This document shows, piece by piece, positions 35,343 to 42,570 of a stretch of 64,000 bases of DNA (position 1 is the stretch's first letter; each line of letters starts with the position of its first letter). The stretch is from Acinetobacter sp. CS-2. GTDB taxonomy: Bacteria > Pseudomonadota > Gammaproteobacteria > Pseudomonadales > Moraxellaceae. The stretch spans positions 434,001-498,000 of the forward strand of contig NZ_CP067019.1 of the NCBI RefSeq assembly GCF_016599715.1. Direction: 5' to 3'. A program made the translations under genes and the position numbers. The notes beneath the pieces were generated by a model. The model ran no database searches and was not told the DNA's origin. It saw only the letters and a list, made by a program, of their open reading frames with translations.

Positions 35343-36413
35343 AAACTTGAAGTGCGACATAAACCACCTAATTAATTTAAAGGGTTTATGGAGTATATAA
35401 AATTGTCATACCATCATCTTAACTTTGAAGATCGTACTGCATTAATGCTTGAGTCAAGAAAAGAAGGCTTTTCAGCCAGAAAATTTGCTGAACTCATTAA
35501 AAGACATCCTAGTACGATCTATCGTGAGCTTAAAAGAAATAGCATCAATGACGTTTATCAAGCTCAATATGCTTCTGATAACACCTTCGCTAGACGTAGA
35601 CGTGGTCACAGAAAACTCAAAATCGATTCAATCCTCTGGAAATTTATTGTTGAAGCGATCCGTTGTTTATGGTCTCCTCAGCAAATAGCAAAGCGTTTAA
35701 AGACATTTCCTGATTTGGATCAAACAATGAATGTAAGCCATACAACGATTTATTCAACGATACGAGCATTACCAAAGGGTGAGTTGAAAAAAGACTTATT
35801 ATCCTGTCTGCGTCATGAAAATAAAAAGCGAAAAGCTAACGGTGAACCTAAAAAAGATTCTATATTACAGGATATTAAAACTATTCATGAGCGCCCAGCC
35901 GAAGTTCAAGAAAGAAAAATACCGGGTCATTGGGAAGCTGATTTAATTAAAGGTAAAGACAATAAAAGTTCGATAACAACACTTATTGAACGAAATACAC
36001 GGCTCTGTATCTTGGCAACATTACCTGATGCAAAGGCAGAATCAGTGCGCAAGGCTTTAACTGAAGCTCTGAAATATTTACCTGCAGAACTGCGTAAAAC
36101 GTTGACCTATGACCGTGGACGCGAGATGGCAGAACATAAAATACTTGAAGAAGATTTAGGCATAGATGTATATTTCTGTGACCCACATTCACCCTGGCAA
36201 AAAGGCACATGCGAAAATATGAATGGTTTAATTAGGCAATATTTACCTAAAGGGATTGATTTAAATCAGGCAGATCAGCATTATTTAAATCAAGTTGCCA
36301 TGTCACTGAATACTCGTCCTAGAAAAGCGTTAGATTGGCTTACACCATTAGAGAAATTTGCTCAGCTTGTTGATTATCATAAGACTTTTCAAACTGTCGC
36401 ACCTCATGTTTGA
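35343..36413 (+). mobile_element. IS30-family insertion sequence
   Basis: Imperfect terminal inverted repeats AAACTTGAAGTGCGACA (35343-35359) and, reversed, AAACATGAGGTGCGACA (ending 36411). Size is about 1070 bp. The exact ends are uncertain by a few bases because the transposase stop codon (36411-36413) reaches the right end, and no clear target duplication is visible. Confidence 0.8.
35388..36413 (+). CDS. IS30-family transposase
   Basis: A 341-residue IS30-type transposase. The N-terminal helix-turn-helix contains HPSTIYRELKRN (about residues 40-51), and the DDE catalytic core includes HWEADLIKGK, TYDRGREMAEH and DPHSPWQKGTCENMNGLIRQ. The frame is intact and starts 29 bases inside the left repeat, so the element could be active. 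ISAba125 is a related IS30 element of Acinetobacter, but the length differs. Confidence 0.92.
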   Translation: MEYIKLSYHHLNFEDRTALMLESRKEGFSARKFAELIKRHPSTIYRELKRNSINDVYQAQYASDNTFARRRRGHRKLKIDSILWKFIVEAIRCLWSPQQIAKRLKTFPDLDQTMNVSHTTIYSTIRALPKGELKKDLLSCLRHENKKRKANGEPKKDSILQDIKTIHERPAEVQERKIPGHWEADLIKGKDNKSSITTLIERNTRLCILATLPDAKAESVRKALTEALKYLPAELRKTLTYDRGREMAEHKILEEDLGIDVYFCDPHSPWQKGTCENMNGLIRQYLPKGIDLNQADQHYLNQVAMSLNTRPRKALDWLTPLEKFAQLVDYHKTFQTVAPHV

Positions 36414-39912: not shown

Positions 39913-40074
39913 TGCTGAGTCCGGGTAAGTACTTAAAATATGATATTAAGTATATGAAATAAATGATTTTTTAATAATTCTATCTAATCTGAAAAACTGC
40001 TTGAATTCTATACAAAAAAGCGTAATATCAGCTTGCTATCCAATCTGGATGGTGAATGAAAACAGGTGAGTAAA

Positions 40075-40266
40075 ATGGCAAAGAAAAAAGCTCTGCCAGA
40101 GGTTGTGATTCACAACTTTGTGGCAAAACACATGCATGAGGTTAACAAAAGCCAGGTCTTTGTGGACCGCAAGAAAAATGCAAAACGTGGCTATGACAAG
40201 CACAAAAAAGGGAGATACTCAAATGACTATCTCCCTTTTTATTTCACTGTATTTTCTTACATCTGA
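40075..40266 (+). CDS. small basic protein; reading frame runs through an intrinsic terminator
   Basis: A 63-codon frame beginning MAKKKALPEVVIHNFVAKHM and continuing with the basic segment DRKKNAKRGYDKHKKGRY (residues 31-48). It is rich in Lys/Arg and looks like a nucleic-acid or ribosome binder; it resembles a small conserved gammaproteobacterial family (I think DUF7230) and, loosely, the basic tail of ArfA. The frame is open until a TGA at 40264-40266, but a 13-bp terminator stem (40204-40240) lies inside it, so most transcripts should end near codon 55 without a stop codon. An upstream in-frame GTG at 40066 is a possible alternative start. GGTGAG precedes ATG 40075. Confidence 0.65.
   Translation: MAKKKALPEVVIHNFVAKHMHEVNKSQVFVDRKKNAKRGYDKHKKGRYSNDYLPFYFTVFSYI
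40204..40240. terminator. bidirectional intrinsic terminator inside the small ORF
   Basis: Perfect stem of nine bases AGGGAGATA/TATCTCCCT (40209-40217, 40228-40236), extended by A-T pairs to about 13, with a ten-base loop. T runs follow on both strands. It serves the convergent ptsP (stop at 40273) and lies upstream of the stop codon of the plus-strand small ORF. Confidence 0.88.
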
Positions 40267-40272
40267 ATAGAA

Positions 40273-42570
40273 TTAAGCACCCACAATACGGGTTGCCGAT
40301 TTCACCATATCGCCCAGACCATGGGTCTTGAAATAATACTCCATCCAGCTTTTCACCATTAGTGGATTACTCATTTTTAATACACGTTCCAGTTGTTCCT
40401 GTGCATCGCTCATCGGCACATGACAAATGGCCTTACGCACCCGCAAAATATTGCTTGAACTCATCGACAGGGTATTAAAGCCCATCGCCATCAGCAGCAC
40501 AGCCGCCAATGGGTCGCCAGCCATTTCTCCACAAATGCTCACCGGTTTGTCATATTTATGACATTCCTGAACCAAACGGCTTAAAGCGCGTAAGACGGCA
40601 GGGTGGAAGTGGGAGTAGACATTGGCAACCCGAGGATTATTACGGTCTACAGCAAGTAAATACTGGGTCAAGTCATTTGAACCCACCGAGAAGAAGTCCA
40701 CCAGCTCAGAAAATTCTTCAATCTGTAATAGCACACTCGGTACTTCAACCATAATGCCAATTTTGGGTTTGGTAATTTTAACCTGTTCTTCTTCCTGCAC
40801 TGCGGTCCAGTCACGATCCAGCAGATAGAGGGCTTCTTCCACTTCACTGACACTGGTGATCATGGGCAGCAAAATATGCAGGTTATTCAGACCAATACTG
40901 GCTTTCAGCATTGCACGAATCTGGGAAGAGAAAATTTCAGGATGATCCAGGGTAAAACGGATGCCACGCCAGCCCAGCGCCGAGTTTTCTTCTTCAATCG
41001 AGAAATACGGTAAATCTTTATCTGCACCAATGTCGAGGGTACGCATCACCACAGGTTTATTGGCAAAGTGACTGAGCTGCTGGCGGTAAATGGCACGCTG
41101 TTCTTCTTCGCCGGGGAAGCGATCACGTAGCATGAACGGAATTTCAGAGCGGTATAAACCTACGCCTTTAGCACCACGCTGTACGCCGCGAACGACATCA
41201 ATCATTAAACCGGTATTCACATACAGTTTGACTGCCACACCATCAGGTGTAATGGCATCTTTGGTTTCGTATTGTTTTAAGTCTTTCGCCAGCTGTTCTT
41301 CTTCTTTTTGGATTTCTTTATAGCGTGTACGTAAACGGCGCGGCGGATTGATGAACACCCGTCCCTGATGGGCATCGACAATCATCTCCACATCATCCAG
41401 GGTATTGATTGGCAGTTCAGTCACACCGACCACGGTTGGAATGCCCAGTGCACGTGCCACAATCACCATATGTGAGTTCATGGCACCTTCGGTGGTGACA
41501 ATCGCGGCAATTTTATCCACCGGTAATTCAACCAGTGCCGCGGTTGAAATGTCTTCCCCGATCAGAATGCTTTCATCGGTCAGTTCACGATGGCTGGCAT
41601 CGGCTTCCTGTAAAAATGCCAGAATACGACGACCGAGATCTTTCAGGTCGGACACACGTTCGCGTAAATAGTCATCTTCCATTTGTGCGAACAGGGCAAT
41701 GTGATTATCAATGACAATACGAACCGCACCCTGTGCCCAGTTACCATCGCGGATTTCAGCCTTAATTTCAGCAGGCAGGGAATTTTCATCCAGCATGCGC
41801 AAGAACACGCTAAATAAAGCTCGCTCTTCAGCCATTAAGGCATCCTGCATTTTTTCATCCAGTGCCTGAATTTCCTGACGCACTGCATTTAATGCGGCAT
41901 CCAGAAGTTCTAGTTCTTCACTGATGTCATCTGCTTCACGATCAGGTACAGCCGCCAGATCTGCAGGCGGGTAGAGAATTACCGCACGCCCTAAAGCAAT
42001 CCCGCCTGAACCGGAAACGCCCTGAAAGGTTTTATAAGCAGGCAGATTGCTTGGCTTGCGGAACACATCGATATTGCCGACGGCATGGGCATGAGCAATC
42101 ACACCGGACAGCTGGGCACACAGGGTGACCAGGAACGATTCCGCTGCTTCGCTAAAATCTTGCGGTTCCTTATTTTGCACTACCAATACGCCCATAACCT
42201 TACGGCGGTACATCACCGGAACACCCAGGAAGGAATTATAAATTTCCTCTCCGGTTTCAGGCAGGTACATAAAGCGTTCGTGCTTCGGTGCATTATCCAG
42301 ATTGACGATTTCTTCGCGTTGTCCCACCAGTCCCACCAGACCTTCGCTGGTATGTAAGGAAACATGCCCCACAGCTTCAGGATTTAACCCTTTAGATGCC
42401 ATGAGCAGATAACGCTGGTTACGCTCATCGAGTAGATAAATGGAGCAGACATCCACGTGCATGGCTTCAGCAACCTGATTGACCATGATGTCGAGTGACT
42501 CATGCAAACTGGTGGACGCATTGATTTCTTGCACAATGCGTCTTAAGGTGTCCAGTTGCATATTCGACAT
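40273..42570 (-). CDS. ptsP: phosphoenolpyruvate-protein phosphotransferase of the nitrogen PTS (EINtr)
   Basis: A 765-residue EINtr. An N-terminal GAF domain (about residues 1-160) is followed by the PEP-utiliser N domain, the swivelling His domain with EGAMNSHMVIVARALGIPTV (phospho-accepting His near residue 360), and the TIM-barrel C domain with GLYRSEIPFML and DFFSVGSNDLTQYLLAVDRN. It passes phosphate from PEP to NPr and then EIIANtr, a regulatory cascade. It neighbours rppH, the usual ptsP-rppH pairing. Confidence 0.95.
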   Translation of the reverse strand: MSNMQLDTLRRIVQEINASTSLHESLDIMVNQVAEAMHVDVCSIYLLDERNQRYLLMASKGLNPEAVGHVSLHTSEGLVGLVGQREEIVNLDNAPKHERFMYLPETGEEIYNSFLGVPVMYRRKVMGVLVVQNKEPQDFSEAAESFLVTLCAQLSGVIAHAHAVGNIDVFRKPSNLPAYKTFQGVSGSGGIALGRAVILYPPADLAAVPDREADDISEELELLDAALNAVRQEIQALDEKMQDALMAEERALFSVFLRMLDENSLPAEIKAEIRDGNWAQGAVRIVIDNHIALFAQMEDDYLRERVSDLKDLGRRILAFLQEADASHRELTDESILIGEDISTAALVELPVDKIAAIVTTEGAMNSHMVIVARALGIPTVVGVTELPINTLDDVEMIVDAHQGRVFINPPRRLRTRYKEIQKEEEQLAKDLKQYETKDAITPDGVAVKLYVNTGLMIDVVRGVQRGAKGVGLYRSEIPFMLRDRFPGEEEQRAIYRQQLSHFANKPVVMRTLDIGADKDLPYFSIEEENSALGWRGIRFTLDHPEIFSSQIRAMLKASIGLNNLHILLPMITSVSEVEEALYLLDRDWTAVQEEEQVKITKPKIGIMVEVPSVLLQIEEFSELVDFFSVGSNDLTQYLLAVDRNNPRVANVYSHFHPAVLRALSRLVQECHKYDKPVSICGEMAGDPLAAVLLMAMGFNTLSMSSSNILRVRKAICHVPMSDAQEQLERVLKMSNPLMVKSWMEYYFKTHGLGDMVKSATRIVGA

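Follow-up and report, generated by a model that had tools for sequence, protein, structure and literature searches.

ArfA (PF03889), a protein of Beta- and Gammaproteobacteria, releases nonstop ribosomes in an RF2-dependent manner, and ArfT of Francisella tularensis, which has a KKGGSTNKK-like tail, works with either RF1 or RF2. Both ArfA and BrfA of Bacillus subtilis are reported to be small rescue factors made from nonstop mRNA (PMC3989581, PMC6881298, PMC8012679), and BrfA is described as regulated by trans-translation (PMC6881298). Full-length E. coli ArfA is reported to be unstable through its hydrophobic C-terminus (PMC3989581, PMC8012679). Relatives of ArfT are reported in several bacterial lineages (PMC6514570), and F. 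tularensis is reported to have neither ArfA nor ArfB (PMC6299226). Authors in the field suggest that further small rescue factors await discovery (PMC8012679, PMC6299226).

Here we describe a gene of Acinetobacter, coding for a member of the DUF7230 family, that in our best reading works like ArfA and BrfA yet forms its own uncharacterised family. It shares with ArfA a small basic product, a hairpin before the stop codon that is predicted to give a nonstop mRNA, a hydrophobic or Ala-ending read-through tail and a presumed role as backup to tmRNA, but shows no significant sequence or profile similarity to it. Judged by its description, BrfA also has a Rho-independent terminator inside the ORF and a product of about 62 aa, but comes from another phylum than Acinetobacter. 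ArfT, likened on the same basis, is a short basic protein (40 aa) of a gammaproteobacterium, but the arfT gene is reported to have neither a terminator nor an RNase III site ahead of the stop codon (PMC6299226).

The window, a 64,000-nt stretch of Acinetobacter sp. CS-2 (NZ_CP067019.1, 434,001–498,000; coordinates below are those of the window), contains on its forward strand an ORF that runs from ATG at 40075 to TGA at 40264–40266 with no earlier stop, as the preliminary description had it, and codes for 63 aa. The in-frame hairpin with a U tract that had been claimed for it was borne out as well, with its start at 40205, one base from the 40204 given before. This intrinsic terminator (40205–40240, same strand) has a 13-pair stem, AAAAAGGGAGATA/TATCTCCCTTTTT, with TTTTTATTT at its 3′ side, and folds at −18.5 kcal/mol, where shuffled sequences average −5.5 (z −6.0) and not one of 200 does as well. 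It lies wholly before the stop codon, 23 nt from it. The U tract (40236–40244) places the predicted 3′ end of the mRNA at about codon 55–56, and makes termination, not RNase III cleavage, the simplest presumed route to a stopless message in Acinetobacter. Our simple terminator scan, which allowed loops of 3–8, did not list this hairpin, probably because the unbroken stem encloses a loop of 10.

Upstream of the ORF stand a ribosome-binding-like AGGTGAG and a promoter-like element (TTGAAT, 16 nt, TAATAT; 40001–40028, forward strand), whose function we infer from conserved blocks. These blocks, TTGaa and Gcg.aatAT, are conserved in most of the 19 loci that we aligned from the set of 87 but unclear in a few, e.g. 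L008, L061 and L077; by eye the element scores 8/12, below the threshold of our promoter scan. With a promoter-like element of its own, AGGTGAG and the in-frame hairpin, the locus therefore reads as a single-gene unit with its terminator in the coding region.

The protein is small and basic, with a basic stretch at its C-terminal end. It matches DUF7230 (PF23876), one of the families proposed for comparison in the preliminary description, with 60.5 bits in a Pfam scan (E=1.6e-16; gathering cut-off 27), and also the phage family phrog_1359 (E=1.2e-7); neither family has an assigned function. Codon differences from the window in 79 genomes (codons 11–43) number 937, 231 and 121 at positions 3, 1 and 2, respectively. 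The protein matched no PDB chain at E up to 10 (phmmer) and no RF-1 domain in Pfam, and no catalytic domain was found in it. Rfam gave just two sub-threshold matches (E 0.44 and 0.51), which we take as chance. Our literature search of open-licence papers found no title or abstract opening concerning DUF7230.

How unusual is such a position for a terminator? We applied a simple ORF filter to 464 kb of this genome (400 kb plus the window) and obtained 385 ORFs of 100 aa or more. Of their 112 best terminators, 109 lay after the stop, 2 overlapped it and 1, a weak one, lay wholly before it. Among small ORFs (40–100 aa, in the 400 kb), which are mostly not known genes, 5 of 99 had a terminator before the stop. 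One case in a small ORF is thus weak evidence by itself, and conservation decides.

The DUF7230 gene is present in 87 of the 149 Acinetobacter genomes searched, and in all 87 loci the hairpin precedes the stop (83 by script, 4 by folding), although shared ancestry means that such counts are not independent events. The four loci missed by the script have a stem broken nearer the loop, and folding puts the hairpin at the same place. The preliminary description had named homologues with a stop codon ahead of the hairpin as evidence against it; there were none among the 87. Stem end and stop are 8 to 146 nt apart. In a separate scan of 72 named loci, every one kept the layout, with 6 or more of the 7 core pairs; the species are largely those of the larger set, among them A. 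lwoffii, A. schindleri, A. indicus, A. towneri, A. guillouiae and A. bouvetii. Only one record of that scan, ‘A. baumannii ACIN00150’ (L207), is named as a species of the baumannii–calcoaceticus complex, although many of the records carry no species name.

In the core of the stem, the variable positions change as pairs. The 87 loci give 74 distinct hairpins, in all of which stem pairs 4–10 are standard; pairs 1, 3, 11, 12 and 13 are broken in 6, 25, 1, 3 and 17 of them, respectively. At the variable core pairs 7–9, 222 of 222 cells are standard pairs (shuffle mean 171, maximum 185), and for the full 13 pairs 910 of 962 cells are paired (shuffle mean 852, maximum 867), compared with 462–651 of 962 when the partner is slid by 1–3 columns. 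Two core pairs underwent about 9 and about 15 parsimony changes of pair type, every one of them to a standard pair, on a rough tree built from about 130 nt of the upstream ORF.

Beyond the hairpin, Acinetobacter DUF7230 frames continue into a variable, hydrophobic tail (median 8 residues), which in the window reads YFTVFSYI (40240–40263, forward strand), is degron-like and would be translated only past the terminator. We compared 83 distinct tails with 146 control tails, obtained by translating that DNA in its two remaining frames and dropping those with an immediate stop. The last residue was nonpolar in 76/83 tails (75/146 in controls) and Ala in 38/83 (8/146), the end was Ala-Ala in 23/83 (2/146), and charged residues made up 2.8% (14.1%); tails of close relatives are alike (e.g. 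the FLMAA group), so these counts overstate independence. The simplest reading of the bias is that the read-through protein may be selected for instability.

The nonstop-mRNA reading of the preliminary description is well supported by sequence: the layout in 87 of 87 loci, the paired stem changes, the promoter-like element and the hydrophobic tails all speak for it. We regard it as highly probable that the DUF7230 gene yields nonstop mRNA and that tmRNA controls the abundance of its product. That the protein is itself a rescue factor is somewhat less secure, though still likely, and draws on the complement of rescue genes in the genus.

The window's genome has tmRNA, with the tag ANDESYALAA. 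Only two RF-1-domain genes were found there, with frames of 386 and 346 aa, as expected for RF1 and RF2, and hence no ArfB was detected in this genome. ArfA was found in 0 of the 149 genus genomes at E≤0.001, and the E. coli control was detected. A third RF-1-domain gene, perhaps ArfB, occurs in 15 of the 149; because all 15 also carry DUF7230, we rejected the idea that ArfB replaces DUF7230 where the latter is absent. Thus 72 of the 87 DUF7230 carriers lack both ArfA and a third RF-1-domain gene. A further 62 of the 149 genomes have none of the three, which tells against a general need for a backup: there either it is unneeded or another factor serves, and perhaps these genomes hold another backup. 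In the Proteobacteria studied, trans-translation is reported to be essential where Arf proteins are missing (PMC11633108). Yet for A. baumannii AB5075 a transposon screen gives smpB an essentiality score of 0, not essential, in the in vitro input pool (PMC12604733).

We therefore favour a model, probably correct as a whole, in which the DUF7230 gene encodes a backup ribosome-rescue factor under nonstop-mRNA control. RNA polymerase would stop at the in-frame hairpin, so that most mRNAs would end near codon 55 with no stop codon, and ribosomes would stall at the stopless end. While tmRNA–SmpB is working, the product would be tagged with ANDESYALAA and destroyed, and DUF7230 protein would stay low. 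When trans-translation fails or is overloaded, an untagged protein of about 55 aa would accumulate and free stalled ribosomes. Its basic C-terminal part would probably enter the empty mRNA channel and recruit RF1 or RF2; we infer recruitment of a release factor because no catalytic domain was found, and model it on ArfA, BrfA and ArfT. Transcripts that pass the terminator would give a protein with the hydrophobic, often Ala-ending tail, expected to be degraded, as a second lock of the kind reported for E. coli ArfA (PMC3989581, PMC8012679).

Of the alternatives, the one that survives best, though we consider it unlikely, is that the protein belongs, in strongly diverged form, to a rescue family already known, either ArfA or the broad ArfT family (Burroughs and Aravind, PMC6514570). 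It resembles ArfA in size and charge. The DUF7230 and ArfA families, moreover, show the same two features, an in-frame hairpin and an Ala-Ala end, with one or the other in many members but the two in different ones. At least one of two scans found a hairpin before the stop in 7 of 20 ArfA loci (L109, L112, L113, L114, which is weak, L130, L137 and L139). Another 12 have an Ala-Ala end, and only L133 shows neither feature; the 20 are 21 matches less L140, a sub-threshold hit. Sequence comparison speaks against kinship with ArfA. The window protein had no match to PF03889 (cut-off 25.5 bits) at E up to 10, and with none in the genus genomes either, we rejected ArfA by family search. Profile–profile comparison left ArfA unsupported too, since an hhalign alignment of DUF7230 (39 sequences) with ArfA (20 sequences) scored 9.85, with a probability of 0.44% over 13 columns, and 25 of 200 column-permuted ArfA profiles scored at least as high. 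The KGKGSY block of ArfA is also absent from DUF7230. Hence the ‘ArfA-like rescue factor’ of the preliminary description is supported as an analogy, in how the gene is controlled and in the kind of protein, but not as family membership. DUF7230 and ArfA occurred together in 0 of 369 genomes of a class sample and 0 of 244 of an order sample, but both families are so rare (less than one overlap per sample expected by chance) that this says little.

Two small proteins of other loci (L106, 1501–1596, reverse strand; L108, 1501–1569, forward strand) read NP[IV]AKxVRTPRFRxRVVxDxKK and score just under the DUF7230 cut-off. Their RTPxF stretch may resemble that of some ArfA proteins, which we offer as a lead only and which would favour a divergent ArfA; against it, neither protein matches PF03889. 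Separately, many ArfA proteins of the order have a C-terminal -QAA or -LLAA similar to the tmRNA tag (L110, L111, L126–L129, L131, L132, L134–L136 and L138). This looks like a built-in degradation signal that may act instead of, or besides, a nonstop hairpin.

Somewhat more doubtful is the possibility that the gene is under nonstop and tmRNA control while its protein does another job, for instance as a regulator or ribosome-binding factor that reports the loss of trans-translation. The control layout is independent of function, and Pfam, hhalign against ArfA and PDB searches found no homology to a known rescue factor, as this alternative would allow. However, such control goes with rescue factors in ArfA and BrfA, as these are reported; the DUF7230 protein is a small, basic one with a basic stretch at its C-terminus; and the 72 carriers with neither ArfA nor a third RF-1-domain gene also tell against it.

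Least probable is that the hairpin is merely a bidirectional terminator shared with a convergent gene (40273–42570, reverse strand, from the ORF list), which we take to be ptsP, a name from the first reading rather than from a family search, and that the ORF happens to run through it. In its favour, the ptsP stop lies 6 nt beyond that of the ORF, the hairpin is flanked by A and T tracts on its two sides and may serve ptsP from the other side, and 66 of 87 loci have ptsP downstream in convergent orientation. Against it, ptsP was not found within the roughly 500 nt of downstream sequence fetched for the other 21, which keep the layout without exception; the gap to ptsP exceeds 100 nt in 6 of the 66; the tail bias is in the coding frame and absent from the other two; and a stop before the hairpin, which none of the 87 loci has, would leave a shared terminator undisturbed. 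The suggestion made earlier that the ORF might simply share this terminator thus fails as a full explanation. Among 26 ptsP loci from genomes that lack DUF7230 (L141–L166), three have, on the far side of the missing gene's place from ptsP, the acyl-CoA-dehydrogenase-like gene that lies upstream in the window. The distance from that gene to the end of the match is 92, 110 and 504 nt, compared with 975 nt in the window, so the DUF7230 gene is simply missing at least in the first two.

Outside Acinetobacter, the nonstop-mRNA control that we favour for the window's gene is not a trait of the whole DUF7230 family, since 12 of 21 cellular loci have neither in-frame hairpin nor Ala-Ala end and 6 of 15 phage loci have no comparable hairpin. 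The family occurs in 13 of 369 genomes of the class sample and 10 of 244 of the order sample, both of which include the window's genome. The other nine cellular loci divide into 3 whose hairpin precedes the stop and 6 that end in Ala-Ala (L117, L119, L121, L123, L124 and L125). L103 and L104, from another family of the class, have an in-frame hairpin with a U tract, and these hairpins are different from those of Acinetobacter. In L120 the DUF7230 frame is stopless past a GC-rich hairpin and runs into what looks like the next gene, presumably dehydrogenase-like to judge by its motif.

DUF7230 (phrog_1359) is also encoded by jumbo and T4-like phages. In tblastn searches, the window protein matched 37 phage records and the Aeh1 protein 95, counted separately and with their overlap uncounted. 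Fifteen phage loci were read among the matches listed (L169–L172, L174, L175 and L268–L276), and in 9 of them a hairpin lies at the stop or shortly ahead of it. In Pectobacterium CBB, Cronobacter GAP32, Xanthomonas XbC2 and Erwinia Kaldavass, an inverted repeat with no clear U tract ends 15 nt before the stop; for CBB a longer piece folds differently. In Salmonella Munch, Klebsiella fENko-Kae01, Erwinia SNUABM_19, Serratia BF and Escherichia 121Q, the hairpin ends at or overlaps the stop, and the Munch record annotates a terminator inside the DUF7230 CDS. The six loci with no comparable hairpin are those of Aeh1, PX29, Ahp1_CNU-2021, D479, Ci1 and LPCS28. Because the stop may remain in the phage mRNA, nonstop control is only suggested for phages.

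On a broader proposal we are evenly divided: DUF7230 may be a further, sequence-unrelated family of release-factor-recruiting rescue proteins that acquired control by nonstop mRNA and a C-terminal degron in parallel to ArfA and BrfA. It would serve Acinetobacter that have no ArfA or ArfB, and jumbo and T4-like phages would use it to release ribosomes left stranded as host mRNA decays. Should the phage proteins prove active on nonstop ribosomes too, phages would have rescue factors of their own. For a family that had no assigned function, the control layout now predicts a role, and A. lwoffii, A. schindleri, A. indicus and A. towneri offer species for testing it. The prediction also matters for efforts to target trans-translation with drugs, since carriers of the gene should depend on tmRNA to a different degree from species that lack it.

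Plasmids carry the family too. Two of the plasmid loci, both from Vibrio (L173 and L277), were read and have no in-frame hairpin; plasmid carriage as a whole comprises four Vibrio records of 0.88–0.94 Mb. Elsewhere in the window, positions 35388–36413 hold an intact-looking transposase-like ORF, presumably IS30-like.
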